In this document: positions 5,965 through 28,895 of the stretch, piece after piece | How positions within the stretch are numbered: position 1 is the first letter of the stretch | Layout: each line of letters opens with the position of its first letter | IMG/VR virus record: IMGVR_UViG_3300023180_006626 | Location: 1-28,895 of that record | Direction: 5' to 3' (one strand) | DNA: 28,895 nucleotides | DNA from: a virus | Notes under the pieces: generated by a model | The model's database searches: none | What the model was told of the DNA's origin: nothing | The model's input: the letters and a program-made list of their open reading frames with translations, nothing else | Program-made: the position numbers and the translations under genes

Positions 5965-6002
5965 ATAGTATGATTGAAAACAATAATAAAGGAAACAAAA
6001 AA

Positions 6003-6281
6003 ATGGAAAATAAACCTACTTTTATAGAATTATATGAAACTAATACTAATGAACCAAGATTAAATATTATGAATTATGCTAATACTAATCTTGATGAATA
6101 CGCTATGTATAAAGGTATTCCTATGGAATTTAGGTGGAATCCGGTTATTAGAGAAATGATGATGACTGGTAATTATAGAATTAGGTATCGTGGTGGTAGT
6201 AAGCCACAATATGGTTATGTAAGAAATCCTTTCAATACCATAGCAGAATATGCCGATACTTTTGCAATTTATCCTAAATAG
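6003..6281 (+). CDS. Small protein of unknown function, the only plus-strand gene
   Basis: 92 residues. The ATG at 6003 is chosen over the one at 5970 because AAAGGA at 5988-5993 is well spaced for it, and because the predicted transcript begins at about 5970. The protein is soluble, rich in Asn, Tyr and Met, and has no membrane segment or recognised domain. Visible features are FIELYE near the start, an RYRGGSKPQYGYVR segment and FAIYPK at the C-terminus. It lies between the capsid and neck genes with its own host-type promoter and shares a bidirectional terminator with the capsid operon, so it is an independent unit like a moron. An early role such as host modification would fit, but nothing in the sequence proves it. 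Confidence 0.7.
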   Translation: MENKPTFIELYETNTNEPRLNIMNYANTNLDEYAMYKGIPMEFRWNPVIREMMMTGNYRIRYRGGSKPQYGYVRNPFNTIAEYADTFAIYPK

Positions 6282-6408: not shown

Positions 6409-8061
6409 TTACACATAGTTTACATCAGCAACTACGACTTTACCGTAGAACTCACTTCTAACCATCTTCTTAGCGTATCTGGTCATTACACCTTTTCTTG
6501 GTGTGAAGTTCTTAGGGTCGTATACTAATGGTGTCATGATTAACGGCACATATGGAGCATAAACCGCACCTGTTTCAAGGAAGTTACTTCCTCTGAAACC
6601 TGCTAGGATTACATTGTCCTGTGCGTAAGGGTTCTTGTAAACAGTAAATCTGTTGTTAAGAGCACCTACTTTTTGTACACCCATTGCGAATGATGATTTA
6701 GTTGAATCACCATCAGAATCTGCTGCGTATCCAGGAATAGACTCTATGATTGTTGCAGTCTCAGGACTTACAACGATGAAGTTAGCTCCACCTCTTAGAG
6801 TTTTTTGATGAATAGCGTTACTTACTGATTGTAGTTTGTTTCCAAGTGTTTGGAACCAAGTACCTTTTACATATGCATTTGAATTTGCAGATGATTCAGA
6901 AAATAGACCTGTTGCTGAGTCATACTCATATCCGACTCTTGCTGACCATCTTTCTGTCTTAGCAGATGCATTTGCATACAACATGTCTAAGATTTCTAAA
7001 TCAATTTCCATTGAAATGTACTCAGAAAGAAGAGCAGTTAATTCAGCTTCCGCATCAACACTATGGTACGCGTTCAAGTCTTGAGCAAGTTCTGGTGTCC
7101 AGACTGCTTTTAACTTACGAGTTTTAGCGATGATTGGAATGCTTTTTAATGCGATATCCAATTCTGGAATATCGATATCTGTTTCAGGGTTTGCATCAAT
7201 TTGATTTGCAGTTGCCTCAAAGTCTGTACGAGCATAATTGGTGCTCTTAACTTTGTGGTAAGATACTACTAAATCTCCAGGTGCACCTGCAGTTGATTTC
7301 AATACATAGAAATTAATTGCAGAATTCGCTGAATCGTATGATGTATGTGCTGGATAGAAAGCATCAAATCCAGAACCTGAAATTGAGAAAGCTCTAACAC
7401 CATCTGGGTCAAAATCAGTTATTGCACCAGTGTGTACAGAGATTTTCAATAGACCGTCATCTGCAACTTGTCCTGTAGATACAGAAGCAGATAGGTCTGG
7501 CTCAAAATTAACATCTGACCAGTTTACAGATGCAGTTGTGTATGCACCACTTGAAAGTGATGAAGCAATACTTACTGCAGATGAATCTGTGTCGTTAATT
7601 GAGTAGCCAAATTTACCAGCACCGTACAAACCGCCAGTAGCATCACCAGAACCTGATGTATTACCATATACATCTGAGTTGTTGGTGTGATTGTCAGTTT
7701 GAGCAGTACCATATTTGAAGTCAAGATAGAAAATCAGACCTGAAGGTAAGTTCATTGGTTGAACAGAAACAAATTCCTGTGCAGCCAACTCACCAAAGAT
7801 TCTACGAACTAAAGGAAGTGCAACACCTGACCACTCTTCAGCGTTTGCAGATGTACCTGTTCTTGAAGCTTCATCAATTAATTGACGAGCTTGGTTTTCA
7901 AGAAGAACAGCCATTCCGTTTACTTCATGTTCTTTGTTAAGACCTTCTAAAAGACCTGTTGGTTCCCATTTCTTGACTAACTTACGAGTTTGTTCCAATA
8001 GTTGTCTTTGTGGATTATATCCATCCATTAAAGACTCTATTGATTTAAATTTATCACTCAT
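6409..8061 (-). CDS. Major capsid protein (T4 gp23-like)
   Basis: 550 residues (T4 gp23 has 521). Characteristic segments are VSVQPMNLPSGLIFYLDFKYG at about residues 98-118 (T4 CGVQPMNSPTGQVFALRAVYG, shown in part), KAVWTPELAQDLNAYHSVDA with AELTALLSEYISMEID further on, and the C-terminal YAPYVPLIMTPLVYDP and GVMTRYAKK. The N-terminal 64 residues should be a delta domain. LIDE/A at residues 61-65 matches the T4 cleavage site after Glu65, so the gp21-like protease at 15302 probably trims it. The ATG at 8061 follows TTAGGAGACTAAAA, an excellent ribosome binding site, 14 bases after the scaffold stop. A TATAAT string at the end of the scaffold gene could be an extra promoter but lacks a good -35. 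Confidence 0.95.
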   Translation of the reverse strand: MSDKFKSIESLMDGYNPQRQLLEQTRKLVKKWEPTGLLEGLNKEHEVNGMAVLLENQARQLIDEASRTGTSANAEEWSGVALPLVRRIFGELAAQEFVSVQPMNLPSGLIFYLDFKYGTAQTDNHTNNSDVYGNTSGSGDATGGLYGAGKFGYSINDTDSSAVSIASSLSSGAYTTASVNWSDVNFEPDLSASVSTGQVADDGLLKISVHTGAITDFDPDGVRAFSISGSGFDAFYPAHTSYDSANSAINFYVLKSTAGAPGDLVVSYHKVKSTNYARTDFEATANQIDANPETDIDIPELDIALKSIPIIAKTRKLKAVWTPELAQDLNAYHSVDAEAELTALLSEYISMEIDLEILDMLYANASAKTERWSARVGYEYDSATGLFSESSANSNAYVKGTWFQTLGNKLQSVSNAIHQKTLRGGANFIVVSPETATIIESIPGYAADSDGDSTKSSFAMGVQKVGALNNRFTVYKNPYAQDNVILAGFRGSNFLETGAVYAPYVPLIMTPLVYDPKNFTPRKGVMTRYAKKMVRSEFYGKVVVADVNYV

Positions 8062-9628: not shown

Positions 9629-10306
9629 CTACTTTTTAACTTCTGTTTTTGCTTGGAAATTCTTATCAACATAATTAAAGAACTTCTTTTTAGCCTCATC
9701 ATCAAGTTCTGCTGGTGATTTTATTCCAAATTTTTTCATTGCATTTGCAAAGAATTCTTGATAATCACCCTCATCAATACTATGACCTGATGGTGTTTGA
9801 TTATCCTTTACTGGTATATCTTCTAATCCAAGTCTTACCAATTCATCATGGTCTTCATCACCCTCTATTTCAAAATATCTACCAAGAACATGGCCCATAT
9901 CTTCATATAAACCACTCATTCTTTGTTGTAGTACTTGTGATTCTTGTGCAATCTTTCCAAATGATTTTGATAAGTTTGTTAATTCTTTCATGTTACGATT
10001 TACCGTAACTTTATCAAACCAATCTTCGGTTTCACTTAGAGTATAATTTTTTCCCATTTCTGCAATTGATGATAATCTTTCTGCAATCTTTTTAAGGTCT
10101 ATTTCTTTCTGTAATACTTTACCGAAACTTGCAAATTCCTTAACTGCCGCTCTTACTTCTTTTGCAGATATCTTTTCTTCTTTCTTACCATAAATATCCT
10201 CAACCATACTTGTTAAAGATGTATTGGTATTTCCGATTGGTGGTGTAGATACTACTCCACCCAATACTGAAAAGTTTTCTTTTACTAAATCTTTTAATTT
10301 TGCCAT
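9629..10306 (-). CDS. Putative internal head protein with capsid-targeting-like N-terminus
   Basis: 225 residues, function unknown. The start MAKLKDLVKE/N fits the M-x-[KR]-L-K-x-[LI]-[ILV]-x-E pattern of five sites in this region and ends in a possible gp21-type cut. The middle is charged and helical (about residues 40-135). An acidic segment follows (FEIEGDEDHDELVRLGLED), then a C-terminal module SPAELDDEAKKKFFNYVDKN that I recall from other marine phage proteins. The ATG has a strong AAGGAG and a TATTTATT motif about 20 bases before it, so it probably starts a transcript that includes bS21. A packaged internal protein is the favoured guess. Confidence 0.6.
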   Translation of the reverse strand: MAKLKDLVKENFSVLGGVVSTPPIGNTNTSLTSMVEDIYGKKEEKISAKEVRAAVKEFASFGKVLQKEIDLKKIAERLSSIAEMGKNYTLSETEDWFDKVTVNRNMKELTNLSKSFGKIAQESQVLQQRMSGLYEDMGHVLGRYFEIEGDEDHDELVRLGLEDIPVKDNQTPSGHSIDEGDYQEFFANAMKKFGIKSPAELDDEAKKKFFNYVDKNFQAKTEVKK

Positions 10307-10336: not shown

Positions 10337-10933
10337 TTATCTTCGTTTTTTACCGCCAAGATAACTACGAAATCTTTTATCTACTTTTGTCCATAGTACA
10401 CCCAACATCTCTCTAACACCCATACTGGTATCACCTGTTGGACCTGTTTTAATACCACGAATTAAATCCATAGCATCATACTTACCATTTTTCACACCAT
10501 TCATCATTACTTTGATGGTTTGTTGTGATGCCTTGTTGAAAAACTTACCCATTTCTTTTATATCTTTTTCAACAAATTGTTTGGCCTCTGGTGATGAATA
10601 TTTTGACATTGGAAAACTATTCACCCCTTTACCCTTTAATGAACCTGGTACATACATCTCTGCTTCATCTAAACCAGATTTACCATCAAGATAAGTGTGT
10701 ACACTTTGTAAATTTTCTAATGCGATAGTAAGAGCAGATTGTAACCATGCAGGTAACTCTACTTCACCATCTTCATCTTTTTTCATATTATCAATAATCT
10801 CATAATTCATACGAGCTAATTTTATACTTCTCTTTAATTGAGATTTTGCCATCTGACCTTCATGGTCGCCTTTCTTCTCATTAAGACGAAAATCTTTCCA
10901 TTGAGACCACATTTTATGTGTCATATCACTCAT
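10337..10933 (-). CDS. Conserved-type marine phage protein of unknown function
   Basis: 198 residues, basic at the C-terminus (GGKKRR). Residues about 26-85 (EGQMAKSQLKRSIKLARMNY, then ELPAWLQSALTIALENLQSV and HTYLDG) resemble a helical module I recall from many marine T4-like phages, often at the ends of larger modular proteins. Its biochemical role is not known to me. The C-terminal half (from about 110) is helical with a glycine-rich GIKTGPTGDTSMG loop. The ATG overlaps the previous stop as TAATG, with AGGAGAGG just upstream. It lacks the capsid-targeting-like start of its neighbours. Confidence 0.6.
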   Translation of the reverse strand: MSDMTHKMWSQWKDFRLNEKKGDHEGQMAKSQLKRSIKLARMNYEIIDNMKKDEDGEVELPAWLQSALTIALENLQSVHTYLDGKSGLDEAEMYVPGSLKGKGVNSFPMSKYSSPEAKQFVEKDIKEMGKFFNKASQQTIKVMMNGVKNGKYDAMDLIRGIKTGPTGDTSMGVREMLGVLWTKVDKRFRSYLGGKKRR

Positions 10934-11352
10934 TAACCTCTCCTATATAACCAACCACCATGAACATCAAAACGAGCATATGATTTAGGTTCAAAGATAT
11001 TACCTCTTACACCTTTTGCTCTTCCATTGTATCCTGCAGGTTTATAAATATCGCCTGTTTCTTTATCTACAAAGAAATGAACACTTAATCCATTCTTTGG
11101 CTCTGATGCACGAACATTAACTATTCTATCAAATTTTGGTCCTTTTTTCAAAAGTGTTGGATACTCCCAATTTTTTTGTTCCCATGTAGATGGAAATGAT
11201 TTTTTAAATTGTTTTTCTGCAGATTTCTTCATAAAATCTAACATCTTTTTCATTGCTCTATCATATCCAGCCTTTGCCTCATTCATTGCATGAATTTCTT
11301 TAGCAATATCTTTTGCAATATCCTCACCAATAATATCTTTTAACTTAATCAT
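10933..11352 (-). CDS. Putative internal head protein with KETGDIYKPAG module
   Basis: 139 residues. The N-terminus MIKLKDIIGE/D fits the capsid-targeting-like pattern with a possible cut after Glu10. A further site, MNE/A, lies at about residues 23-25. The C-terminal part contains HFFVDKETGDIYKPAGYNGR, AKGVRGNIF and HGGWLYRRG. I recognise this as a module found in many marine phages, without a known activity. It overlaps both neighbours by one base, so it is translated with them. Confidence 0.6.
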   Translation of the reverse strand: MIKLKDIIGEDIAKDIAKEIHAMNEAKAGYDRAMKKMLDFMKKSAEKQFKKSFPSTWEQKNWEYPTLLKKGPKFDRIVNVRASEPKNGLSVHFFVDKETGDIYKPAGYNGRAKGVRGNIFEPKSYARFDVHGGWLYRRG

Positions 11353-13550
11353 TAGTAATACCCTCTGAATTTGTTTTTAAGAATTAGATTAACTATTTCA
11401 GCAACTTCCTTACCATATCTTGGTGCATTTCTATATGATTTAGGATGTTCAGGGTTTCTTTTTTCATAATCAATATCATCTTTAACTGCATTATTATAAT
11501 AAGTAACCTTATCATATAATCTATCCATTGCATCAGTTATATTTCTCATTAATTCCATTGCTTGCATTTCAGGTGCTCGAGTACTACTTAAACCTTTTAG
11601 TAATTTTTTGGCAGCTGCATTTGGTTTACCACCAATCAAACCTGTAATTAATCCATCTGTATAATCTTTTGCTCTTTTAACTTTTGCTTTAACTTTTTCT
11701 GGGTCATCATACATTGCCTTAATAGCATCTTCGTATTTTTCTTTATTTTGTCTTTTGAAAGATTCATCATCTCTCCATTTCCAAGAACCAACTTGTATAT
11801 CTGACCTTAAGTTTCTAACTTCTTTACCACCCATGTATGGCATGCTTTCCTCAAGTGATATTTTGTAAAACTCAACTCCGTTAATTTTCTTTACTGATGC
11901 TGCGTTTTGATATCCAAATTGATTTAAACCAAAGGTACGATTTTCAGATGTAGAGAATCCATATCCTTTTGTATCTGCAACTCGTATATCTTTTTTTCTA
12001 TTCTTATCGGATTCTCTCCAAGATTTTGTCCACCAAACTGCCTTACCATCTTTGAAAACACTCAAGACAACACCTTTATCAACTTCTAAATCACTTCTCC
12101 AATAAGATTTTCCTTTAGCTGGTAAACTTACTTTTTTACCAGTTACTGCAATCACAACACCTTTACCAGATAGTTTTGCAGTTTTTTCAATCATATCATC
12201 AGTTACTTTATCTGCTCGTACACCTAATCTAGCCAACCATCCATAGAAATCATTATCTAATTTGAAATCTTGTCTATTGGTGAATTTTCTTAATAATTTA
12301 CTTTGTAATGCCTCTACTAAATAAGATACTTTTGATTCTCTCATTACATCTTTTAATTTTATTATACCTTCCTTTGTTTCTTTTGTTATATCGGTTTCAA
12401 GGTCTAATGCTGCTTGTTTAATTTTATCTTGAATTTGTTTATCAAGTTTTTCATCTTTTGGATTTCCGTCGTCATCTAAATTATCTCTAAATTCTTTTCC
12501 TAAATCTTTAAATACTTTTGCATCTGGATTACCTAATTTTTCTAAATTGTCTGCTGCCATATCAACATAGTAAGGTTCAATACCACCAGCCATTTGTGGA
12601 TTTTTTATATTTCTGATAGCGTCGTTGTAATCATCTTGTGCTCTTTGTTTTTGTTTAGGGTCTAACTTTGGTTTACCTAATGTTGAATATTTTTTATGAA
12701 AATCAATAAGTATTTTTGTCTTTTTTTCTAATTCTTCTCGTGGAACTTCTGATAAGGCTTCATCATCTAAATCCATTACATTTACCTCCGCAGAATAGAG
12801 TTTATCTATATCTTCTTGTGGAATTTGTCCTTCTAATTCACTAGCTACATTATATATCTGTTGATTAAATTCATCTACATTATCATCTAAATCGTTGATT
12901 ACTTTAGTTACATTAGTTATTCCCTTATCATCATACCTATTCCAATCCATACCGTCGATTGCTTCTTGAGCATCATCATCAAGTTCTACTGGTTCATCTG
13001 ATTTAGGTTTTTCTTTAACATCAATACCAATATTATTACCATCCCCATCAAAAGCATCTTGATAATAAAAATCTTCTATATCATCTGAATCCATTTCATT
13101 ACCATCAGCATCAAACATTTTTCCGTCTTTTATTTTCATCCCACCATCTAAATCAAATTCACCTTTCATATTTTTAACATCATCTGCGAATTGTTGTGGG
13201 CCTGATGATTTAAGTTTTCCGTCTTTAACTTTAGTTCCTACTTCTGGTTCATCATGTATTGGGTCAAAATCACTTAAATCAGATGGTTCCATACCATCAT
13301 CATCTGATGGTAGTTCTCTATCGAAATCACTACCACTCAATCCTTTAGATTTAGGGTCTTCTTTTCCACCATCTTTACCAATCTTTACAAGTTTACCACC
13401 ATCATTTTTATGTGTGATACCATCTTGGCCTTCTTTACCATAACCTTTACCTTTCCAAACTAAACCAAGTTTTTTGGCTTTTTCTTTTTCGGTATCTTTT
13501 AACTTTGGAGCATCTGCTTCCATTAATAATGTTTTTAATTTAATCATCAT
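11352..13550 (-). CDS. Two-part putative internal head polyprotein with an internal capsid-targeting-like sequence
   Basis: 732 residues. The start MMIKLKTLLME/AD matches the capsid-targeting-like pattern. Residues about 20-60 form a GYGKEGQDGITHKNDGGKL-type module, then 80-270 are very acidic. At residues 396-413 the same targeting pattern recurs internally (IIKLKDVMRESKVSYLVE/A), so residues 1-395 and 414-732 look like two packaged proteins joined in one frame. The second half is basic, with an SYWRSDLEVDKGVVLSVFKD segment and a helical C-terminus; no enzyme motif was recognised. It overlaps the upstream gene by four bases (ATGA). The acidic half might act as core filler like scaffold. Confidence 0.65.
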   Translation of the reverse strand: MMIKLKTLLMEADAPKLKDTEKEKAKKLGLVWKGKGYGKEGQDGITHKNDGGKLVKIGKDGGKEDPKSKGLSGSDFDRELPSDDDGMEPSDLSDFDPIHDEPEVGTKVKDGKLKSSGPQQFADDVKNMKGEFDLDGGMKIKDGKMFDADGNEMDSDDIEDFYYQDAFDGDGNNIGIDVKEKPKSDEPVELDDDAQEAIDGMDWNRYDDKGITNVTKVINDLDDNVDEFNQQIYNVASELEGQIPQEDIDKLYSAEVNVMDLDDEALSEVPREELEKKTKILIDFHKKYSTLGKPKLDPKQKQRAQDDYNDAIRNIKNPQMAGGIEPYYVDMAADNLEKLGNPDAKVFKDLGKEFRDNLDDDGNPKDEKLDKQIQDKIKQAALDLETDITKETKEGIIKLKDVMRESKVSYLVEALQSKLLRKFTNRQDFKLDNDFYGWLARLGVRADKVTDDMIEKTAKLSGKGVVIAVTGKKVSLPAKGKSYWRSDLEVDKGVVLSVFKDGKAVWWTKSWRESDKNRKKDIRVADTKGYGFSTSENRTFGLNQFGYQNAASVKKINGVEFYKISLEESMPYMGGKEVRNLRSDIQVGSWKWRDDESFKRQNKEKYEDAIKAMYDDPEKVKAKVKRAKDYTDGLITGLIGGKPNAAAKKLLKGLSSTRAPEMQAMELMRNITDAMDRLYDKVTYYNNAVKDDIDYEKRNPEHPKSYRNAPRYGKEVAEIVNLILKNKFRGYY

Positions 13551-15094
13551 AGTCTCACTTGTTTACCGAACCTACTCCACAATTTAGCCATAAATACATA
13601 TAATTGTTTTTCGTTCATTTTGTTAATTTTTTCTTTTTGTTTATCATTTGCTTTTTCATACACTTGTTTAAATAAATTAGCAGTCATAGCATCTACGGTT
13701 CTACCACCGAGTTTTCCAAATGAATGGTCATCTGCCATCTTCATAATTTTTTCTACACCCTTACCTTCATTTACTGATTCATTCATAAACTCATTGTCTA
13801 AAAATGAATGAATATCACGAGTGGTTTTAGGTAGTTTTTTACCTGTTACTTGGTTAAATATTGCGATTGAGTATGGTTGGTTGTGTCGTAATTTAGATTT
13901 TAATGCTCTGATATCTTTTTTCTTTATTGCCTTTACCAACTCATCATAAGTTCGTTTTGCATTCGCTTTATTTTGTGCAGTAACAGCTTTGATTATATCT
14001 TGTTTTTTATATTTTTGTGCACCTTTATCACCTTTTTTAAGAGCTATCTCCCAATTTCCCAACATTCTTTTTATTGAACTTTTTAGGTGGAAATAATCTT
14101 TTTTTGAAAATAACTTATACAATTTTTCAAAATCTCTATTTTCGTTTATTGATTCTTTTACTGATTCTTTCTTTGAATAATCTGGGTCAAGTTTTCTTAA
14201 CTTGATTAAAATATCTCTTAACATCTCTCTATCTGTAGAATCAAATCCAATTTCAAAATTTGGTTTCTTCTTTAATAATACTGAGTAGGCCATTCCGATT
14301 TCTTTTTGTCCTAATGTTCTTTTCTTTTTATCAGGGTAAACTCCTTTAGGCCCATAGAAATCATTCATATATTTAATAAATCCTCTGTAATCCATTTCAT
14401 TCAATATACTCTCACCTAAATCTTTGGTTTGTTTTTTCATCCCTTTTGGATTCACTAAACTTACACCTAATGTTTCAGTAGATAATAAATCTTTAGTTTT
14501 CAACATAAACTCTATCCAATGTTTCTTATATAAATTCATCAATTCCATACCTCGTTTTCTATCTTTACGAGCAACATCTTTGATTTTACTTTTAATAAGT
14601 TTATCTATTTCTGACATTTTCATTTCATTTAAACCATATGCTTCATTTACTGATTCTGCCTTTACACAATTTGGATATTTTTTACCAAACAATTCTTTTG
14701 TTTTTTGAGTAGGATGTATTTTATATCCTTTCCAACATTTCTCACATAAACACCCACCCATCTTTTCTGCCAACTCTTTTAATTTTTTATCAACTTTACC
14801 TGTACCACCTGGTGATTTTAATTTATAATTAGGGTCGACAGCAGAAGTAGTGTAACCACATGCTTCCATTTCGGTGTTGGTTAACTCTTTAATTGTTTTA
14901 ACTATCCACTCTTTGTTCACTTTTTCTGGTTTCCCTTTATGTTTTGTTGAAGCATACTTTTCAGTAGACTTCGTATCCATTGATTTTGCTGCCTTCTTTA
15001 CTGCGGGTGAGGCATCACTTGGTTTCATTTCTCCTTTATTAAGAGCATGAACCATACCCATAAATCTTTGTTGAGCTTTAGATTTGGATGGCAT
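13547..15094 (-). CDS. Putative multi-module head polyprotein with DUF3008-like N-terminus
   Basis: 515 residues. The N-terminus (MPSKSKAQQRFMGMVHALNK, then ASTKHKG) looks like the DUF3008 family of T4-like phages. A Cys-rich module follows (C79, C115, C117, C120, C143) with GYKIHPTQKTKELFGKKYPN. After it come four lysine-rich helical segments separated by short linkers: ESVNE/A (after 151), GLNE/M (157), SILNE/M (233), ESINE/N (318) and ESVNE/G (443). The last segment includes GGRTVDAMTANLFKQVYEKA, another recurring marine phage module. The [LIV]-N-E linkers look like prohead-protease sites, so the product may be cut into five or so small internal proteins. No catalytic motif was recognised. 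The ATG overlaps the previous stop by one base. Confidence 0.65.
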   Translation of the reverse strand: MPSKSKAQQRFMGMVHALNKGEMKPSDASPAVKKAAKSMDTKSTEKYASTKHKGKPEKVNKEWIVKTIKELTNTEMEACGYTTSAVDPNYKLKSPGGTGKVDKKLKELAEKMGGCLCEKCWKGYKIHPTQKTKELFGKKYPNCVKAESVNEAYGLNEMKMSEIDKLIKSKIKDVARKDRKRGMELMNLYKKHWIEFMLKTKDLLSTETLGVSLVNPKGMKKQTKDLGESILNEMDYRGFIKYMNDFYGPKGVYPDKKKRTLGQKEIGMAYSVLLKKKPNFEIGFDSTDREMLRDILIKLRKLDPDYSKKESVKESINENRDFEKLYKLFSKKDYFHLKSSIKRMLGNWEIALKKGDKGAQKYKKQDIIKAVTAQNKANAKRTYDELVKAIKKKDIRALKSKLRHNQPYSIAIFNQVTGKKLPKTTRDIHSFLDNEFMNESVNEGKGVEKIMKMADDHSFGKLGGRTVDAMTANLFKQVYEKANDKQKEKINKMNEKQLYVFMAKLWSRFGKQVRL

Positions 15095-15301: not shown

Positions 15302-15922
15302 TTATTCTCCTCTTATAATCTTGTTGATTAAATCTTCTGCTTTACAATACTGACCACAAGTTCTTCCTTGTGTTGGTGTTCTTTCAACACCCTCTTGTAG
15401 TGGATACATGAAGGCACCATGTGTAGATGGATTACTTACAAAATCAAAAGCTATTAATTCAAAATCATTTCCAACTTTTGTTGTTGGTGTACCATCTGCT
15501 TCAGTAACAGTCTCTACTGAACCCATACCACGAGAACTGATACCTAATTTGATACCATTCTTAAATAATTCTCTTAAAATGTTTCCACTTGGTGTGGTTA
15601 GGATTTCAACTGTTCCTAATAAGTTGTCACCTTCCCAATGCATTTCAGTAATATTATGTGATACATTTTGTAAGTTCACTACTGAAGAATCTGGATGGTC
15701 AAGTTCACCTAATGCTCTCTTTTGAGAAATAAAGTTTTCTGTATAGTTTTTTGCTTCTCTCTGAAGAATGTTTGTTGGATATACTCTTCCATTTTGATTT
15801 TTTGCATTTGCTCTTTGTAATACACCTTTTACAATCAACTTTCCGTTGTTTTCTTTTAGTGATTCAGTTATCTGTTCCGCAGATAACTCAAAAGGTATAT
15901 AATCTACTAATAAGTTTCTCAT
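15302..15922 (-). CDS. Prohead maturation serine protease (T4 gp21-like, peptidase S80)
   Basis: 206 residues, near the length of T4 gp21. The early NGRVYPTNIL segment and the catalytic motifs are typical: His76 in GELDHP, Ser129/Ser130 in LGISSRGMGS, and Asp160 in FDFVSNPS. These enzymes work inside the prohead and cut the scaffold, the capsid delta domain and internal proteins after Glu in [LI]-x-E. The capsid (LIDE/A) and scaffold (VLNE/G) genes here carry such sites, as do the linkers of several accessory proteins. The C-terminal tail (RTPTQGRTCGQYCKAEDLIN) is lost or self-cleaved in comparable enzymes. It overlaps the preceding gene by one base. T4 places gp21 between gp20/67/68 and gp22; here six further head-region genes and bS21 separate it from the scaffold. 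Confidence 0.92.
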   Translation of the reverse strand: MRNLLVDYIPFELSAEQITESLKENNGKLIVKGVLQRANAKNQNGRVYPTNILQREAKNYTENFISQKRALGELDHPDSSVVNLQNVSHNITEMHWEGDNLLGTVEILTTPSGNILRELFKNGIKLGISSRGMGSVETVTEADGTPTTKVGNDFELIAFDFVSNPSTHGAFMYPLQEGVERTPTQGRTCGQYCKAEDLINKIIRGE

Positions 15923-16281
15923 TATTTCATCCTATTCACTAAACCTACAGCTTCTCTCATGAATTTAGTTACATTATCTTTGTAGGCCTTGTTAATCTGT
16001 TTTGCTAAATCTTTATTTTCACTATCTTCTTTGAAAACTTTTTCTAACTTTATTAATCTTTTTCTCAACACACCTTCTTCTTTTATAAACATCTGTAATT
16101 GTTTTTTTGCCTTTGCCTTTTCTTCACGACCTTCACTTATGTTGTCGTTTCCTTTCCAATCACTAGCTTGATTCTCTTGATGTTTTTCCATTACTGATTG
16201 AAGTGTTGGTAATGGTTGACCAAATTCTCTATCTAATAAACTAATACTTTCTGTTAGGTACTTATCGTTTGTTTTACTCAT
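15922..16281 (-). CDS. Small helical protein before the prohead protease, unknown function
   Basis: 119 residues, charged and helical with likely coiled coil from about 50 to 110. The N-terminus contains YLTESISLLDREFGQPLPTL. The C-terminal region has FMREAVGLVNRMK. Position between portal and protease corresponds to T4 gp67/gp68, small head-core proteins, but I see no sequence match strong enough to name it. It overlaps both neighbours by one base. Confidence 0.6.
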   Translation of the reverse strand: MSKTNDKYLTESISLLDREFGQPLPTLQSVMEKHQENQASDWKGNDNISEGREEKAKAKKQLQMFIKEEGVLRKRLIKLEKVFKEDSENKDLAKQINKAYKDNVTKFMREAVGLVNRMK

Positions 16282-16559
16282 TATATTTTATCCATTAATC
16301 GTTTAATTTGTTTTAGTGTTTTTGAAGTGAATTGTGCACTTTGAAACACTTTATAATCTTCACCTATTTTAACTAACTCATCGATTTGGTCTCTTAAATC
16401 ATATTTCATTTTTCTCCAAACCTTACTATCGATTTTGTTAGCTGGTATAACTTTAATGTTTTCATTAATTCTTACTTCAATCACTTGTTCTTTAGTGGAA
16501 CAACATCCCCCACCACATTCACAAGTATCTTCTTTTATTAAATTTTTTAACCTAATCAT
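16281..16559 (-). CDS. Small Cys-rich protein with capsid-targeting-like N-terminus
   Basis: 92 residues. MIRLKNLIKE/D at the start fits the shared targeting-like pattern with a possible cut after Glu10. A cluster CECGGGCC at residues 13-20 could bind metal. A second candidate site, INE/N, ends at residue 33, so the Cys peptide (11-33) might be released separately. The remaining 59 residues are helical and basic. The start overlaps the upstream stop (ATGA). A small packaged internal protein is inferred; no family recognised. Confidence 0.6.
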   Translation of the reverse strand: MIRLKNLIKEDTCECGGGCCSTKEQVIEVRINENIKVIPANKIDSKVWRKMKYDLRDQIDELVKIGEDYKVFQSAQFTSKTLKQIKRLMDKI

Positions 16560-17644
16560 TTTAAATTCCCTACTCTACTTGCTAATTTAACTAATCTCTC
16601 AGATATACTACTAAGAGCCTTGTGTGTGTTTTTCCAATAACTTCTTGAATCAACATTTAATTCATTTTTCAATCTTAAACTCATTTTGATTGTTTTATCT
16701 AATTCATTTAATGAGTTACGAACTTCACGAATTGATTTACCAATTTTTTGTTTTGGTGTTAAAGATTCGTCATTTCTCCAATCGTGATACTTACCCTCAT
16801 TTATACTTTCATAAAAATAATCATCCATTGGTTCTTTAACTTGAAAACTAATATAAGACCATACATTACCCTTTAGTTTTTTCAAAACTTCTTCAAAGTT
16901 AAATGCCATTTCTCTTGCTTTGTTCTTTTTAGCAAACTTCAACATCATTTCAGTTTCTTTTTCTAATTTTTTCCAATTGTTTGTGTATCGTTTAAGTAAT
17001 GCAGCAGCTTGTTTTTTTACTTTAGGGTCAACTGCCTCATCTACGGTTATTGATTCGTTTCTTATATGACCCTTTAAAATTTGACGAAGTGTAGTTATTT
17101 CTTTTGTAGCCTTTAAGATAGTTTCATAATACTTATTAAATTTTCTATCTTTAAGTGTTTTATCACCTATTTTAGCAATATTCCAATAATCTTTTTGTAG
17201 TTTTTCTAAACTGTTTTGAAGTTTTCGTAATGCATCAACTTCTTTTTTAGTAACTTCGTTTACATTTTCAATCTTTTTATCTACTTGTTTGCCAAGTGCT
17301 GGTTGTACACGAGATACACTTATAACTCCTTTTAAACCTTGTTTTAATTTTTTGGCAACCATTGTTTTTGCCATACCTTTTGAACCTGCATCCACAAGAA
17401 CTTTACCTTGACCTAATTTACCCATATCAACAGTTACAGCAAATTTTACTTCACTTACTTGTTTTAAACCAGATTGATTTGCAATATCATCTCGTTTCTT
17501 TTTATCTTTTTTTCTACCACCATCGAATGCCATTGGTGTCATGTATCCAGGTGTTGCTGCAGAAGTAGAGACTTCTTCAATCTCTTTCTTGATTAAGTTT
17601 CTTAAAGCTTCAATAAATTTTGCTTTATTTATCTTTGTGGACAT
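16556..17644 (-). CDS. Putative head polyprotein with TPGYMTPMAF module, unknown function
   Basis: 362 residues, basic and helical. The N-terminal helix (INKAKFIEALRNLIKKEIEE) runs into STSAATPGYMTPMAFDGG, a motif I recall from marine T4-like phages, then a DKKKRDDIANQSG segment. Linkers ENVNE/V (after 130), ITVDE/A (203) and ESINE/G (283) divide the rest into three helical parts. The last (LTPKQKIGKSIREVRNSLNE) is again a recurring module. The linker sites match the predicted protease rule. It overlaps the end of the upstream gene by 20 bases. Expected to be a head-internal or core protein, without known chemistry. Confidence 0.6.
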   Translation of the reverse strand: MSTKINKAKFIEALRNLIKKEIEEVSTSAATPGYMTPMAFDGGRKKDKKKRDDIANQSGLKQVSEVKFAVTVDMGKLGQGKVLVDAGSKGMAKTMVAKKLKQGLKGVISVSRVQPALGKQVDKKIENVNEVTKKEVDALRKLQNSLEKLQKDYWNIAKIGDKTLKDRKFNKYYETILKATKEITTLRQILKGHIRNESITVDEAVDPKVKKQAAALLKRYTNNWKKLEKETEMMLKFAKKNKAREMAFNFEEVLKKLKGNVWSYISFQVKEPMDDYFYESINEGKYHDWRNDESLTPKQKIGKSIREVRNSLNELDKTIKMSLRLKNELNVDSRSYWKNTHKALSSISERLVKLASRVGNLK

Positions 17645-20401: not shown

Positions 20402-21976
20402 TTATAAGAGCCATTCTAAAGACTCTTTTTTCTTATCTTTACCAACATCCCATTGCCAAGAATCATTTTCATTCTCGTCTGCAGTGTATAAACCATCTAC
20501 ATCTTGGAGTCGGTTTAATGTTTTCTTCGTTAACTCAATTCCCTCAGTTCGTAATCTTAACGCAGTATCACGAACCCACAATCCGATAGCAAACGACATA
20601 ACCAAATCATCATTGTATCCTGCCATTGCTTCGGCTCTATTATTATTATAGATGAAAGTAAATAATTCATCGATTAAACGATTACTACGAACCACTACAC
20701 TTTCCTCTCTAAAAAATTCTTCTAACTTAGCTATAATTAGTGGACGACTCTTCATTGTCGTTGAAAATCCTGCCACCATATTCTTTTCTTGAGCTCTGTA
20801 TTTATTTGTCATCTGATGTTGTACATCGATGTATTGTAAATCTTTACTTGTATAAAATAGATTAGGATAATCCCTATCTATCACTTGTTGGATGGTTGCC
20901 CAACCAATATTATTGTTTTCTATAATTAGTAAAGCATCGTTATATTCTGTTGAAATTGTTACTAATAAATTACCAAAATCTTTAGTACTCATTCTACCTT
21001 TATACTCTGCAACTTGTTCTACATTCTCCACATCAATAACATGGAATGCAGAATAATCTGCTGAATCTCCTCTACCAACATCAGCACATACAATATAATT
21101 CCTTGTGTAGTTTGGTGGTTGCCAAACCCATAAGTTTCCATCTATTCCTCTTTTTTCTATTGGGTCTTGTACATGGGCCTTTCTACAATTTTCTAATATC
21201 GTACCATCAATAACAGAAGTACCAGAAGTAATGAAATCACAATCACATTCTTGTGCAGCACCTTGTAAACCTAATAATTCATCTTGTTCATCTCTCCACT
21301 CTTGGTTTCTATCTGGATGAACACTCCAATGTAATTTAATATCATTGAACATTCCTCTACCTTCTTCGGCCTGTACCCAAGTTTGATGAAACCAATTACC
21401 AACTCCATTTGGTGTTGATAATGCAATACAACTACCACCCGTTGTAAGTGTTTGTTGAGATGCAGTCCATATATCATCAATCTTATCAATGAACGCTGCC
21501 TCATCCAATATCAATAATGATAGAGCTTCAGAACGAGCTGCTTCGGTTGATGATGCAACTGCTTTGATTTGTGAACCATTAACATATCGTAGTGATAATT
21601 TATTATCCTCAACACATCGTTGTTTCAACCAACTTGGTAAATTTGCGTGCATAACACGAACTTTCGTAACCAAGTTTTTTGCAGTATCTTGTTTAGTTGC
21701 AATTACCAAAATGTTTTTATCTTGGAAGAATGTCATCTGCCATAAAGAGTAACCAGCAGTTAGTGTACTTATTCCTAATTGTCTTGCCTTTAAAATAATA
21801 TTAAATCGATTCTCTTTAAATTCATTAACCGTTTCTTCTTGAAAAGGATACAAATGAAAAGGTATCTTACCCTTAATCGGGTGTTGAATCATACAATACT
21901 TTTTTAAAAAGTAGACAGGGTCTTGAGCACACTTAATATACTCTTGTTTGATTACTTCTTTTATCTGTTCTGCCAT
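20402..21976 (-). CDS. Terminase large subunit (T4 gp17-like)
   Basis: 524 residues (T4 gp17 has 610). The ATPase half has Walker A KARQLGIST at 63-71, Walker B LLILDEA at 154-160 with catalytic Glu159, and coupling motif STPNG at 187-191. The RNase H-like nuclease half has VCADVGRGDSADYSAFHVID starting near 296 (Asp299 and further acidic residues), IIENNNIGW and YNDDLVMSFAIGLW near the end. It cuts concatemers and pumps DNA through the portal; the T4 relative suggests headful packaging. The gene is intact with no intein or intron break. It shares a base with the previous stop (TAATG). Confidence 0.95.
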   Translation of the reverse strand: MAEQIKEVIKQEYIKCAQDPVYFLKKYCMIQHPIKGKIPFHLYPFQEETVNEFKENRFNIILKARQLGISTLTAGYSLWQMTFFQDKNILVIATKQDTAKNLVTKVRVMHANLPSWLKQRCVEDNKLSLRYVNGSQIKAVASSTEAARSEALSLLILDEAAFIDKIDDIWTASQQTLTTGGSCIALSTPNGVGNWFHQTWVQAEEGRGMFNDIKLHWSVHPDRNQEWRDEQDELLGLQGAAQECDCDFITSGTSVIDGTILENCRKAHVQDPIEKRGIDGNLWVWQPPNYTRNYIVCADVGRGDSADYSAFHVIDVENVEQVAEYKGRMSTKDFGNLLVTISTEYNDALLIIENNNIGWATIQQVIDRDYPNLFYTSKDLQYIDVQHQMTNKYRAQEKNMVAGFSTTMKSRPLIIAKLEEFFREESVVVRSNRLIDELFTFIYNNNRAEAMAGYNDDLVMSFAIGLWVRDTALRLRTEGIELTKKTLNRLQDVDGLYTADENENDSWQWDVGKDKKKESLEWLL

Positions 21977-23252: not shown

Positions 23253-26200
23253 CTATCCAAATTTTAAACTACCAAGTATTTGATTGATTGGAGCAAATGC
23301 ACCAGTAAACTTATATACTTTACCTTTGTACTTAAATACAATTCCCTCACTTGGAACAATTGATTTTAATCCACCAATTGCATTTAGTTTTTCTATTTGT
23401 GTTTTTAGTTTTTTTAATTTCTCTATATTATCTTTTTTACTTAAATCTCGATATGCCTTCTCCATTTCATCACGAACTTTCTGAACTGACTTATCAGGAT
23501 TTACTGCCATATAACCACTTATGTTTTTCAATATCTGTGCTCCCACATCAAAGAACAATACTTCAAATGGTTTTATATTATCTTTAAAAATTTTAGTGTG
23601 GTCAAACTTATCTGTATTCACTATCCACTCTACAAACTTTGGATTATCTTTGTAATCACTTCTAATTTCTTGTATCTTATATGATTTATCAAAGTATGCC
23701 CATCTACGAACTAACTTTGCAAATTGAGCAGGTTTTAACTTTACACCAAATTGTTTTGATGCATTAAAAATATACTCTCTCCAATATGCCTCATGATATT
23801 CACCTAATGTATTTTTATCATTCAATCCATATGTTGATTGTAATCTTTTTAATCTACCCAAGTATGTATTTTTTAATTTATCATAATCTTGGTGTTTTGG
23901 TACTTTTAAAAAGTTTGGTTTACCAATCTTAAATGTTTTTTGTATACTTTGATTCACTTGTTTAATCATACCTGCCAACATACGAGCAGAATCTTTTGGT
24001 TGTCCTATTGGTCTACCACTTTCATCATACTCTAATGTACCATGAAATACTATTTCTGCCACATCATAATCTATTACATTTGCTGTTGCTGGATACATAA
24101 CCTCTAAATTCATCCATCGTTTACCATTACCGAATACTTTTTCTTTTTGTTTATCCGATAAAGAACCGATTGCTTTTTCTAAATCTCTCATCGCACCTAC
24201 GAATGCTTTTTTAATATCACCTCTACCACTAAAAATAGATGCAACTCCTTTAGTATCTGGTGCAGTTTTACCAAAGTTTCTTAAGTGTCCTTTGTTTCTG
24301 GCAGCTTTTAACTTACCATCAATCCAACTAACCATTAGATTTTGTCCATCGAGTTTCTCTGTAACTCCATCTTCTCTATCTAACTTTCCACCGATACCAT
24401 TAATAATTATGGTCTTTAAATCTGAAAATGTAAGATTATTGTCATCGAAAGGATGACTCATGTGTCCATAGGCTCCACCCATTAATAATAACTCCTTTGT
24501 CTCTTTAATAAATGATTCTTGCATCTGCTTGATTCTATCACCCATCTCATCTTCTGCAGGTGTTAAATCAAGATTAATTGCTCTTTGTGTATTTTGGTCT
24601 TGTGTTTGTACACCAGGTAATGCAGGTGCCTCAACAGGTACACCAGTAACATTTTTAGTATCTGGTGTTAATCCCATCCACTTTAATATTTCAAAATCTA
24701 ATGTACCAACAACTTTTTCTATCCAATCTTTATATGCAATTACTGGGTCATCTTCACCAAACCTCTCTCCGTAAGGACCAGCACCTTTTCTACCATAGGC
24801 AACTGTCGGTACTTTGTTCATTCTTGTGGTGAAATCTAAACCTGGGTCATTTGCATTTGGACTTAAAATATACTGAACGATTTCCCAACCCATACCAGGT
24901 TCTCTATCAGTAATGTACATTTTATTAATCCATTGAGTAGTATGTGTTTTATAATCATCAAACCCATCATAGTATGTAGGTGGGCCATCATCAATAGGAA
25001 CTGCTGCTCTATCTGATGCCTCTTTAAGTAATTTACCCAAATCTATTTCTTGTATAAACTTATCAATCGTTTCAAATAACTTTTTAAATTTATTATTCAT
25101 CATTTGGAACACACCCTTATCATAATATCCAAATGCTTGTTTAAATAATTTTTCTCTATCTTGTTCGTAATCTGGTGAACCAAGTAATTGTCTCATTACG
25201 GTTCCACTCACTTCTTTACCACCAACCTTAACTGATTGATGTGGTGCAGTCATAAAGTATCCATGTTCTTCATATCCCTTTAGATTATTTTTATTCTTTT
25301 TATAATCTTGGAAATATGATAACCCACCAGATTTCTTTTTACCACCTGCTAATCTACCTGCATCTTTTTCACCAAAGATATAAATTACTGCGGTAGTTGC
25401 AGGGTCATATTTCTTAAGAACATTCTCTGCCTTAAGTGGTACTTTTTCCTTAACAATTCGATTTTTAGGAACACCCATTTTTACCATGTGTCGAACTTTT
25501 TCTGCAAAGTTCATAGGATGTCTTGGTGGTTTTTTGATATCTGAAGTAGTGATGTATGCATCATCCACTTGAGATTTTAACCATTTATAGGTTTTTAAAT
25601 GGTGAGGCCCAAACGGTTGATACCGTCCACCATAAATACCTACAACCTTTTTAATCTTTTGTTCGGAAATGGTTGCATTATCCCCATTTTCCATACTTAA
25701 ATATAAGGCTTTTTTCATATAAGAGTCAAGGTTTTTTTGTAAATTTTCTACTTTTTTATACCCACTTTTTTTATTAGTTTTGTTTTTCTTAACACCCTTT
25801 CTACTCGGTGATGGTATTACTCCTGCAGGTGCACCAAACTCTTCATTAATAATACCACCTCGTTCATTATACCATTTTCTAAATTGTGCTGGTGTTCCTA
25901 CGGTAACTTTACCTTTTGCAATTTTTTCTACTTCTTTTCTTATACTATCATATTGACCCACTCTTTTTAACATAAATACATCTTGAATATGAATTTGATT
26001 CACAACTATTTCATTCCACCCGTGTTCTGATGGTTTATCTTTTTGACTTAATATGTGTCGTTTGATTTGTGGTGCATACTTTCTCATTATTTTATAACAC
26101 ATATCAATATATTTTTTAATCCATTCTCTTTTGTAAGGCCCTAATGCCTTTTTTAGGTTTTCGTCGTGTGCTTGGTGGTCATATTGAGTATCACCATAAC

Positions 26201-28244
26201 CTGTTTTTTTCCTTACTTCAGCATCAACTTTATCCTGTATCTTGTCCCATTCTCGTCTATCTATTTTATTTTTTTCAACACCTTTTTTTAATTCATCATA
26301 CATTTTACCACCAGCACCTTTACCTGCTAAATGATATGGTGGAACCCATCTACGACCTGTTTTATCTGGTGTTGATTGTATATCTCTTGTGCTTGCAACT
26401 AATAAAGTTCCCTCTATTTGATAAATAACACCACCTTTACTTTGTATTCCTTGTCCTTTTGCAAGTTTCTCACCTTTGTCTACTGCGGTAAATGTAGATA
26501 ACGAACTTTTCTTCCCAACGATTCTTCCAACTTGTTGTATATCTGATTTTAATTCTGCAGCACCGACGTGAAATACACTTACTTTTTCCTTACCTATTAT
26601 CTTTTGCATAAATTTAGTAGATAATGGAACATAATTTGCATAAAAACCACCGAATGTTTGGTCGAATGATGACCTCGTGTGAACTGATTGAAACTTTGGT
26701 TCTGCCTCATTTATCACACCCTCACCTAAATACAATTTCTTTTCTAATTCTTTTATCTTATCACCAATCTCTGGCCCTTTTAACCCAACAAACTCTTTAC
26801 CACCTGGTCTTACACTTAATTTAAAGTTAACAAGTTTCTTAAAATCTTTACCTATCATCTTACCATAACTTATAATTTGGTTTGGTGTTAATGTAGTTTT
26901 TTCTTGTGCTTTTTTTACATTGTAGATATTTGATGGTTTAAAATCATTTAAGTATACTAAAAATGTTATATTCTTTACTTCATCACCACTATACTTTAAT
27001 TGATTTAAAATCTTTGGTAATTTATCTACTTTATTAGTTCTTAAAACAATTGCTAAAAATAAAATAAAATCCTTGACATTGGGATAAGGTTTACTTATAT
27101 TTAACTTGGGAAACATTTGTTTAGTGAATCCAAACTTATCAAGTGCTTCCATAAATAACTTTTGTGATTTTCCTTTTTGTATTCCTTTTATAAATTCTTC
27201 TCTAATTCGTTCTCTACTTACACCCGTTAAACTTGGATTCTTCATTAGAGCAATCTCTGTATCTTTATCCATCTTACCACCGATAACTGCTTGAAATCTT
27301 AATGCTCTTAATTTTCTTAATGGGTCTTCATCAAATCTTTCAGATGCTTTACCAACTGTTCTAACAATTTTATCTTTTAAATCTTGTAATCCACCTGTTA
27401 AATCCACTACTTCATTTCTATCAATATCATAAAACAATGAATTAATTGTTAAATCTCTACGATTCACATCACCTTTTATATCAGAGAAATCAACTGCCTT
27501 AGGTCTTCTACCTTTACCAATATCTTTTCTAAATGTGGCAATCTCATGTCCACCCACCACAACAACACCAAACTTTTTACCAACTGAAATAGTTTTGAAT
27601 CCACCTTTTTTTGCAATCTTTTCTACTTCATCAGGTTTTGCATTTGTGGCCAAATCAAAATCTTTAGGTGATTTACCAAGTATGGCATCACGAACTGCAC
27701 CACCTACGATATACAATTCTTTTTTAGATTGTCTGAATAATTTATAGATTTTTTTGATATCATTTGGAACTCGTAAAGTTATTTTGTTTTCATTGATTTC
27801 TTCTTTTTTCAATCTACTTTTTTCTCTACGACCTCTGTTTTTAGATTGGTCTTCATAACCTGAAATCTTACCATTTTTATGTGAAGCATCTTTCTTATCC
27901 CCATTTCCATAAGTACCTTTTTGACGATTATATTTATTTAATTCCGCTCTATACTTTTTCATCTTGGTAGATGATTGGAATTTTTTGTATTCGTCTTTAT
28001 AATCTCTTTCGGCCTTCTCTTCTAATTGTTCTTCACTATCATCATTTTGTTTTTTGATTGGGCGAAACTTTAGGGCAGGTCTACCATTTATCAATACATC
28101 ACCTTTTTCATTTGTATCTATGGATTTAACCTTAACTCTTTTATTTTTAAACTTACCCATTAAGACGGTATCACCAACTTCTACATCTAATTCAATACCC
28201 TCAACAAGTGGTTTAACTAACCATTCTGTGAGTTTTGTTTTCAT
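23253..28244 (-). CDS. Giant multi-enzyme putative internal head polyprotein (CCA/PAP-like, NMNAT-like and ligase-like domains)
   Basis: 1663 residues in one frame. Residues 1-15 (MKTKLTEWLVKPLVE/G) look like a capsid-targeting sequence, followed by a small KOW-like region to about 65. Residues 155-505 are a class II CCA-adding/poly(A) polymerase: YIVGGAVRDAILG, DFDLAT with catalytic Asp196/198, RRDLTINSL and RFDEDPLRKLRALRFQA. Residues 514-800 are unassigned. Residues 867-1020 are an NMNAT/cytidylyltransferase-type fold: GIYGGRYQPFGPHH and VSGTVMRQLL. Residues 1076-1230 are unknown. Residues 1250-1660 are a covalent nucleotidyltransferase (ATP-dependent DNA/RNA ligase type) with Lys1297 in EKLDG, ARNKG, NLEVMY, SEGIVFKYKG and YKFTG. 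[LI]-x-E sites lie between domains at 152, 513, 801 and 1075. The ribosome site is weak; it starts five bases after the upstream stop. Confidence 0.85.
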   Translation of the reverse strand: MKTKLTEWLVKPLVEGIELDVEVGDTVLMGKFKNKRVKVKSIDTNEKGDVLINGRPALKFRPIKKQNDDSEEQLEEKAERDYKDEYKKFQSSTKMKKYRAELNKYNRQKGTYGNGDKKDASHKNGKISGYEDQSKNRGRREKSRLKKEEINENKITLRVPNDIKKIYKLFRQSKKELYIVGGAVRDAILGKSPKDFDLATNAKPDEVEKIAKKGGFKTISVGKKFGVVVVGGHEIATFRKDIGKGRRPKAVDFSDIKGDVNRRDLTINSLFYDIDRNEVVDLTGGLQDLKDKIVRTVGKASERFDEDPLRKLRALRFQAVIGGKMDKDTEIALMKNPSLTGVSRERIREEFIKGIQKGKSQKLFMEALDKFGFTKQMFPKLNISKPYPNVKDFILFLAIVLRTNKVDKLPKILNQLKYSGDEVKNITFLVYLNDFKPSNIYNVKKAQEKTTLTPNQIISYGKMIGKDFKKLVNFKLSVRPGGKEFVGLKGPEIGDKIKELEKKLYLGEGVINEAEPKFQSVHTRSSFDQTFGGFYANYVPLSTKFMQKIIGKEKVSVFHVGAAELKSDIQQVGRIVGKKSSLSTFTAVDKGEKLAKGQGIQSKGGVIYQIEGTLLVASTRDIQSTPDKTGRRWVPPYHLAGKGAGGKMYDELKKGVEKNKIDRREWDKIQDKVDAEVRKKTGYGDTQYDHQAHDENLKKALGPYKREWIKKYIDMCYKIMRKYAPQIKRHILSQKDKPSEHGWNEIVVNQIHIQDVFMLKRVGQYDSIRKEVEKIAKGKVTVGTPAQFRKWYNERGGIINEEFGAPAGVIPSPSRKGVKKNKTNKKSGYKKVENLQKNLDSYMKKALYLSMENGDNATISEQKIKKVVGIYGGRYQPFGPHHLKTYKWLKSQVDDAYITTSDIKKPPRHPMNFAEKVRHMVKMGVPKNRIVKEKVPLKAENVLKKYDPATTAVIYIFGEKDAGRLAGGKKKSGGLSYFQDYKKNKNNLKGYEEHGYFMTAPHQSVKVGGKEVSGTVMRQLLGSPDYEQDREKLFKQAFGYYDKGVFQMMNNKFKKLFETIDKFIQEIDLGKLLKEASDRAAVPIDDGPPTYYDGFDDYKTHTTQWINKMYITDREPGMGWEIVQYILSPNANDPGLDFTTRMNKVPTVAYGRKGAGPYGERFGEDDPVIAYKDWIEKVVGTLDFEILKWMGLTPDTKNVTGVPVEAPALPGVQTQDQNTQRAINLDLTPAEDEMGDRIKQMQESFIKETKELLLMGGAYGHMSHPFDDNNLTFSDLKTIIINGIGGKLDREDGVTEKLDGQNLMVSWIDGKLKAARNKGHLRNFGKTAPDTKGVASIFSGRGDIKKAFVGAMRDLEKAIGSLSDKQKEKVFGNGKRWMNLEVMYPATANVIDYDVAEIVFHGTLEYDESGRPIGQPKDSARMLAGMIKQVNQSIQKTFKIGKPNFLKVPKHQDYDKLKNTYLGRLKRLQSTYGLNDKNTLGEYHEAYWREYIFNASKQFGVKLKPAQFAKLVRRWAYFDKSYKIQEIRSDYKDNPKFVEWIVNTDKFDHTKIFKDNIKPFEVLFFDVGAQILKNISGYMAVNPDKSVQKVRDEMEKAYRDLSKKDNIEKLKKLKTQIEKLNAIGGLKSIVPSEGIVFKYKGKVYKFTGAFAPINQILGSLKFG

Positions 28245-28249
28245 TTATT

Positions 28250-28895
28250 TTACCATTTACGACAAGACCAATATCTTGCTTTATGTCGTGGACCTGGATT
28301 ATCACAATTGTGTCTTGCTCTAAACGATTTCCTTGCTTGTGGATTAGATTTTCTAATTTTCATAGTTCCACCTTTGGCATCCCCACCTTGACCAAAATTA
28401 ACTTTTACAACATTACCTTGTGGATTCTTTACATACACTTTAAATTTCTTTACATCACCTTGCATTGGTTTACCAAGTTTTACTTTTCTACCTTGATACT
28501 CTGCCTCAGGTAGTAATCCAGCCATAGTGTATCCAAAAGAACCATCCTCTGCCCATATATCATATGATTCACTTTTTGATTTTCTCCAACCTCCACCAGC
28601 TGCTTTGTATTGTTTTGCTGCCCAACCATTTGCATAAGCACTTGGATACACATCAAACTTTTTCTTAGCCTGTGCCTTGTAGTACGCCCATTTACTTGGG
28701 TCTGTTGGTTTGTTTTCTTCAAAAAACAAGTTTAGTGATTCTTGTATAGTTTCTGACATTTTATTCTCCTGCTTTTTTCTTCCTTGACAATGTGCCTTTT
28801 GACTAAATCCTTTTGGGTTGTTGCAATCAATACTTCTTTTGTATTTGTCTGACCAATCTTCTTCTATTGTTGCCAATTTTGTATAATACTTCGGG
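28250..28895 (-). CDS. Modular marine-phage protein, partial at the N-terminus
   Basis: The frame is open to the right edge (PKYYTKLATIEEDWSDKYKR at the edge), so the start is probably outside the window. Modules in order are SIDCNNPKGFSQKAHCQGRK, then a DUF5872-like block with FDVYPSAYANGWAAKQYKAA and GGGW. A C-terminal block follows with KVYVKNPQGNVVKVNFG and RARHNCDNPGPRHKARYWSC. I know these modules from many T4-like marine phages, mostly without function. The sites IQE/S and LPE/A lie between them. An ATG at 28759 has a strong AGGAG, so a shorter product of about 169 residues may be made. It ends five bases before the giant gene and is likely co-translated with it. Confidence 0.65.
   Translation of the reverse strand, partial: PKYYTKLATIEEDWSDKYKRSIDCNNPKGFSQKAHCQGRKKQENKMSETIQESLNLFFEENKPTDPSKWAYYKAQAKKKFDVYPSAYANGWAAKQYKAAGGGWRKSKSESYDIWAEDGSFGYTMAGLLPEAEYQGRKVKLGKPMQGDVKKFKVYVKNPQGNVVKVNFGQGGDAKGGTMKIRKSNPQARKSFRARHNCDNPGPRHKARYWSCRKW

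Follow-up and report, generated by a model that had tools for sequence, protein, structure and literature searches.

In phage T4, the protease gp21 cleaves behind L/I-x-E, and packaging requires no more than a capsid-targeting sequence (CTS) of 10 residues (PMC9026906). The T4 internal head proteins (IPI-III and Alt) are encoded as one leader-tagged protein per gene, Alt being also trimmed C-terminally. The locus described here resembles them in a short leader ending L/I-x-E, a gp21-family protease in the head cassette and presumed ejection, but differs in that the chain holds several enzymes and its internal sites appear to double as exchange joints. Polyvalent proteins (Iyer et al. 2017, PMC5512222) likewise join disparate enzymatic domains in one polypeptide and are predicted to be injected and processed. 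There, release of the parts is credited to peptidase domains, either embedded zincins or C-terminal assemblin-like ones (PMC5512222). The 1663-residue chain studied here yielded no peptidase domain, and the capsid protease would have to cut it in trans. The polyvalent hallmark domains (MPTase, ArdC-N, DdrB-ParB, MuF and others; common, not universal) are absent from it, Pfam giving only PolyA_pol, PolyA_pol_RNAbd and CTP_transf_like, and its set of domains is a different one.

Large head proteins of phiKZ-like phages and SPN3US are also cut after x-x-E by a prohead protease of the gp21 family and ejected; in the part of that account considered here, the cuts remove propeptides, and no chain is described as giving rise to several enzymes (PMC10052503). 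RNA repair in T4 and jumbo phages involves the same activity classes of ligase, kinase and CCA enzyme (PNK, Rnl1/Rnl2, CCA enzyme) as separate genes, whereas here they are fused and apparently virion-borne (PMC7824862). No papers on polyproteins resolved by a capsid protease in this manner were found in the literature searched. The polyprotein analysed below combines T4 CTS/gp21 processing with polyvalent-protein logic, and its sequence makes it likely that it is head cargo, cut by the prohead protease and packaged so that its enzymes are injected, most likely for tRNA repair.

Reading frame, head cassette and relatives

The window, that is, the whole stretch of 28,895 nucleotides analysed, encodes the polyprotein in a single uninterrupted frame (28244..23253, minus strand), in agreement with a sequence-only reading that had described one intact frame of 1663 residues and to which the strand is added here. 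An assembly chimera is unlikely because one IMG/VR contig (L001) encodes a 100% identical polyprotein and two more contigs (L008 and L127) share the domain order of the window. The head-cassette location is likewise directly established: the gene lies 1.3 kb upstream of TerL, and its neighbours form a T4-type head cassette (TerL, portal, gp21-like protease and major capsid protein). In all relatives showing both genes (73/73), TerL lies downstream of the polyprotein on the same strand, at a median of 1.5 kb. The phage is a marine T4-like virus. Among isolates, Microcystis phage Mel-JY01 and Flavobacterium phage immuto come nearest to it in TerL and MCP (~52-55% identity), and the polyprotein type is common to scores of relatives, represented by contigs that are fragments. 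Host assignment from binned MAG contigs returned four different phyla and was therefore not trusted.

The features of the window are as follows, with a slash marking each candidate cut.

6409..8061, minus strand: major capsid protein (MCP; phrog_138, 2.4e-73)
15302..15922, minus strand: prohead (gp21-like) protease, the presumed cutter (phrog_207 head maturation protease, 4.5e-53)
20402..21976, minus strand: TerL, marking the head cassette (phrog_2)
23256..24515, minus strand: ATP-dependent RNA ligase-like enzyme, residues 1244-1663 (EKLDG, EGIVFK and YKFTG conserved)
24516..25019, minus strand: middle module, residues 1076-1243, ending MQE/ (low AF2 confidence)
25020..25022, minus strand: Glu1075 codon, site LKE/A (Glu in 47/47 homologues, inside a variable linker)
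25020..25661, minus strand: NMNAT/cytidylyltransferase-like enzyme, residues 862-1075 (CTP_transf_like 9.5e-4; PRK01153 0.0036)
25662..25841, minus strand: short basic EFGAPAGxxPSPSRK module, residues 802-861, ending ISE/ (P1 Glu ahead of it in 11/11 distinct contexts; site 861 in 38/40 NMNAT contexts)
25842..25844, minus strand: Glu801 codon, site INE/E ([IV]INE invariant in 11 homologues; breakpoints at 800-819)
25842..26705, minus strand: fourth module, residues 514-801, with VFHV...LSTFT...WNEI motifs (homologue alignment; ADP-ribosyltransferase-like by eye only)
26706..26708, minus strand: Glu513 codon, site INE/A (BLAST breakpoints cluster at 505-514)
26706..27788, minus strand: CCA-adding/poly(A)-polymerase enzyme, residues 153-513 (Pfam 2.8e-31, catalytic motifs intact)
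27789..27791, minus strand: Glu152 codon, site INE/N, ahead of the CCA module ([LIV]xE exact in 8/8 distinct contexts)
27789..28016, minus strand: basic module, residues 77-152 (phrog_6437, 4e-9)
28047..28199, minus strand: small KOW/SH3-like module, residues 16-66 (Pfam KOW subthreshold, 0.0098)
28200..28244, minus strand: leader MKTKLTE/WLVKPLVE/, residues 1-15, with two [LI]xE sites (capsid-targeting-like)

The MCP carries a candidate propeptide site, LIDE/ASRTG, after residue 64, which fits the same [LIV]xE rule and which, by analogy with T4 gp23, we take to mark a T4-type propeptide end. Among the structural genes, a small ORF (1301-1594) has a zinc-ribbon-like CPSC...CKSC pattern and is possibly part of a homing endonuclease.

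Leader, predicted cut sites and module exchange

The chain opens, like a T4-type CTS, with a leader of ~10-15 residues ending [LI]xE; P3 is Leu at both of its sites, and relatives keep it as M..KLTEWLVKPLLE. In T4 itself, processing is prevented when CTS position 10 is Asp. Short 10-residue leaders of the MIKLKxLLxE type occur on neighbouring genes and on dozens of ORFs in relatives. Within the window, this family comprises MIKLKDIIGE/D, MMIKLKTLLME/A, MIRLKNLIKE/D and MAKLKDLVKE/N (10933-11352, 11352-13550, 16281-16559 and 9629-10306, respectively), and ORF 11352-13550 contains a second, internal copy (GIIKLKDVMRE/S).

Module swapping is observed directly, with 26 domain orders among 39 complete ORFs of homologues. 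The KOW/SH3-like module is found elsewhere behind a kinase module (L078/L079) or between NMNAT and ligase (L125, in the order middle module, NMNAT, SH3, ligase), and L055 and L079 carry the module of residues 77-152 in other ORFs. The [LI]xE sites earlier reported at Glu152, Glu513, Glu801 and Glu1075 are present, and homologues contain the same modules with partners changing at [LIV]xE sites, the kind of comparison that the earlier reading had asked for.

The number of motifs carries no such signal. The 1663-residue protein holds 16 [LI]xE against 13.6 expected from composition, a count near expectation that led us to reject raw enrichment as evidence of cutting, and some conserved [LIV]xE copies sit within folded cores (e.g. 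349 and 933). This lack of overall enrichment, together with Lys/Glu-rich linkers, favours an uncut multifunctional fusion acting in the cell as one chain, its [LIV]xE reflecting ordinary charged-linker composition; that Mel-JY01 carries just NMNAT and ligase, as one 639-residue protein, points the same way. The motif alone proves nothing; its placement at shuffling junctions is what argues for cutting.

Of the alignment breakpoints, 43% fall no more than 8 residues from an [LIV]xE, compared with 17% of random positions; for [IV]NE the corresponding figures are 15% and 2.2%, and the control motifs LxD and LxQ were below random in the same test. An exact [LIV]xE precedes the kinase module of relatives in 20/20 distinct upstream 8-mers, with junction entropies of 0 bits at P1, 1.4 at P3 and 3.2 at P2. 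The NMNAT junction (site 861) reads [LIV]xE in 38/40 contexts versus 13% by chance, and P1 is Glu ahead of the 802-861 module in 11/11 distinct contexts, these junction counts taking distinct sequences as separate despite shared ancestry, so that their independence rests on differing upstream partners. At module starts, P1 thus stays Glu and P3 stays Leu/Ile/Val, with P2 and P4 free to change, a pattern that, with the unenriched controls, speaks against mere linker composition. Some junctions keep P1 Glu with a P3 other than Leu/Ile/Val (KNE, TTE, FNE); Glu1243 is Glu in 45/47 homologues with L/I/M/F at P3, and where most relatives have LL[IV]E at the start of the ligase, the window has LLLM. 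Since the same modules also occur as separate leader-tagged genes and the location beside head genes is constant, we regard the uncut fusion as unlikely.

The earlier idea of a polyprotein cut between domains is thus strongly supported by module swapping at the sites, but its product list needs revision: the four sites stand, whereas Glu861 and Glu1243 had been missed and would split the products given as 274 and 588 residues, so that NMNAT, middle module and ligase are probably separated from one another. The predicted products are residues 1-7, 8-15, 16-152 (possibly cut at 76), the CCA enzyme 153-513 and 514-801, followed by a basic peptide 802-861, NMNAT 862-1075, the middle module 1076-1243 and the ligase 1244-1663.

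We propose that the two-site leader directs the chain to the prohead core, where the gp21-like protease would cut after the Glu of [LIV]-x-E at ~7, 15, 152, 513, 801, 861, 1075 and 1243 during head maturation. Left in the virion would be the CCA enzyme, the 514-801 enzyme, the NMNAT-like enzyme, the middle module and the RNA ligase. Once released into the cell along with the DNA, they would most likely mend cleaved tRNA before any phage gene is expressed, acting alongside a leader-tagged kinase whose gene lies nearby in close relatives. The cut sites would also serve as joints for module exchange between phages.

Enzyme modules and their candidate functions

Residues 153-513 are solidly assigned by profile and motif to a CCA-adding/poly(A)-type nucleotidyltransferase, CCA specificity being putative. 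Pfam identifies PolyA_pol (E 2.8e-31; 108.9 bits versus a cutoff of 23) and PolyA_pol_RNAbd (1.1e-6), and the top PHROG hit is annotated as tRNA nucleotidyltransferase. The class II NTase signatures GG[AS]VRD, DxD, RRDxxxN and EDxxRxLRxxRF are all present, above the curated cutoff, and the motifs GGAVRD, DFDLAT, RRDLTIN and EDPLRKLRALRF are conserved among homologues. Residues 1244-1663 are likely an RNA ligase, as judged from motifs and sub-threshold profiles: KxDG is invariant (EKLDG), EG[ILV]VFK is conserved across homologues, and the RNA_ligase profile matches weakly in 28/29 homologues (14.1 bits versus a cutoff of 27). A PDB sequence profile search with this module gave nothing, and the top four Foldseek matches of its model, a poor one (pLDDT 59), were all T4 RNA ligase 2 (E 0.08-0.38). 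Both assignments uphold the CCA/poly(A)-polymerase-like and ATP-dependent-ligase-like domains of the sequence-only reading, as does the profile match described below for its NMNAT-like domain.

Conservation of the CCA and ligase catalytic motifs in divergent homologues indicates selection on activity. It weighs against a scaffold-like role, in which the chain would be cut mainly to clear the core and its enzymes delivered incidentally or used in the producing cell, as does the placing of the predicted cuts in linkers instead of cores. T4 core proteins such as gp22 and gp67, cut to fragments that mostly leave the head, provide a precedent (PMC9026906); we nevertheless consider such a role highly improbable here.

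The NMNAT/cytidylyltransferase-like module (862-1075) matches CTP_transf_like slightly under the Pfam curated cutoff. Its SGTxxR motif is present (SGTVMR in the window) and conserved in nearly all relatives, whereas the window and almost every relative have GPHH in place of [HT]xGH, the exceptions being HSGH in two contexts and HKGH in L126. The NMNAT substrate is uncertain because HxGH reads GPHH in nearly all relatives though SGTxxR is intact. NAD rebuilding, the weaker half of the function first proposed, is therefore possible but poorly favoured by the motif. The other half fares better, tRNA repair by CCA enzyme, ligase and kinase being plausible by analogy.

Residues 514-801, earlier counted among the products holding one recognisable or compact unit, form a conserved fourth module and so more than a compact unit; in L013/L014 the module is part of a separate ORF. 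Its VFHV, LSTFT and WNEI motifs, invariant in the homologue alignment, suggest by eye an ADP-ribosyltransferase. Neither Pfam, NCBIfam, PHROG, PDB-sequence nor Foldseek searches (PDB, BFVD; AF2 model pLDDT 70) gave a match, tankyrase at Foldseek rank 10 (E 5.4) being noise, and no relative was detected outside this phage group, tblastn in phages also yielding nothing usable. With no usable profile or AF2/Foldseek match, the ADP-ribosyltransferase identity was not adopted and stays at motif level.

These results also bear on a variant that keeps the cutting, with 514-801 as an injected ADP-ribosyltransferase put to Alt-like use, NMNAT supplying NAD, host reprogramming as the main purpose and RNA repair secondary. 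The invariant motifs resemble ADP-ribosyltransferase strands, and T4 Alt is a packaged, gp21-processed ADP-ribosyltransferase (PMC9026906); given the empty searches, we hold the variant to be rather doubtful, and prefer cargo serving tRNA repair.

Candidate cargo modules in relatives and neighbouring genes

A P-loop kinase module (Zeta_toxin/AAA_33 in Pfam) occurs either within the polyprotein or as a separate upstream gene, one copy per locus. The separate gene often starts MIKLKDLLxE/G, that is, with its own 10-residue leader, and lies upstream of the polyprotein in L006 and L008; the kinase of the window's genome would lie past the window's end. Relatives also carry an HD-domain (phosphohydrolase) module inside the polyproteins of L046 and L024, which gives the chain the look of a general-purpose cargo rack and not of a single pathway. 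The three enzyme-like domains of the kit first described are present, and in relatives the repertoire extends to the kinase, the HD domain and a C45-type hydrolase.

The C45-type module is encoded in L029 (3032-3907) and L052 (927-1802). NCBIfam C45_proenzyme matches it at 7e-8 without spanning the putative nucleophile Cys, which stands exactly at P1' of VDE/C; sequence searches of Pfam and PDB gave nothing. C45-class enzymes (Ntn hydrolases) need an N-terminal Cys, so a cut at VDE/C would activate the enzyme. We lean towards a general rule whereby any enzyme placed after [LIV]-x-E can plug into the chain, be cut free and be injected, the VDE/C cut creating the N-terminal Cys of the C45 module.

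If the cargo reading holds, T4-type packaging is not confined to proteins tagged one by one but extends to polyproteins of combinatorial make-up that the capsid protease resolves, in marine phages that are widespread and for the most part uncultured. Lists of modules would predict the defences that these phages meet on entry, and the sequence rule is offered for finding virion-borne effectors in metagenomes. The idea is directly testable on the isolated relatives, Flavobacterium phage immuto and Microcystis phage Mel-JY01, the latter having NMNAT plus ligase only.

Similar proteins were noted beyond this gene. Flavobacterium phage immuto (vB_FspM_immuto) encodes a 907-residue protein (L129:2115-4838) that has LxE sites, an NMNAT-like part and parts judged by eye to be Pol-beta-like and zincin-like, as well as an 841-residue protein with LxE sites (L129:8990-11515); a leader with two sites, FL[VT]E/NKLT.N..[LI]LKE/, is common to its gp076 and gp077, and the site pattern of the polyprotein recurs in its gp077, gp079 and gp088. 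In the window, head-cassette genes at 13547-15094, 16556-17644 and 16281-16559 have repeated ES[IV]NE or ILNE sites between segments (AESVNE/A, KESINE/N, MNESVNE/G, YESINE/G), and with six [IV]NE versus ~0.4 expected they look like further polyproteins. The ORF upstream of the polyprotein (28250-28876) is DUF5872-like with phrog_7595 and has candidate sites TIQE/S and LLPE/A; its first segment, WSDKYKRSIDCNNPKG, reappears as a small module within relatives' polyproteins. A plus-strand ORF of 103 residues (5970-6281) lies in the interval between MCP and neck genes, opposite to the cassette direction.
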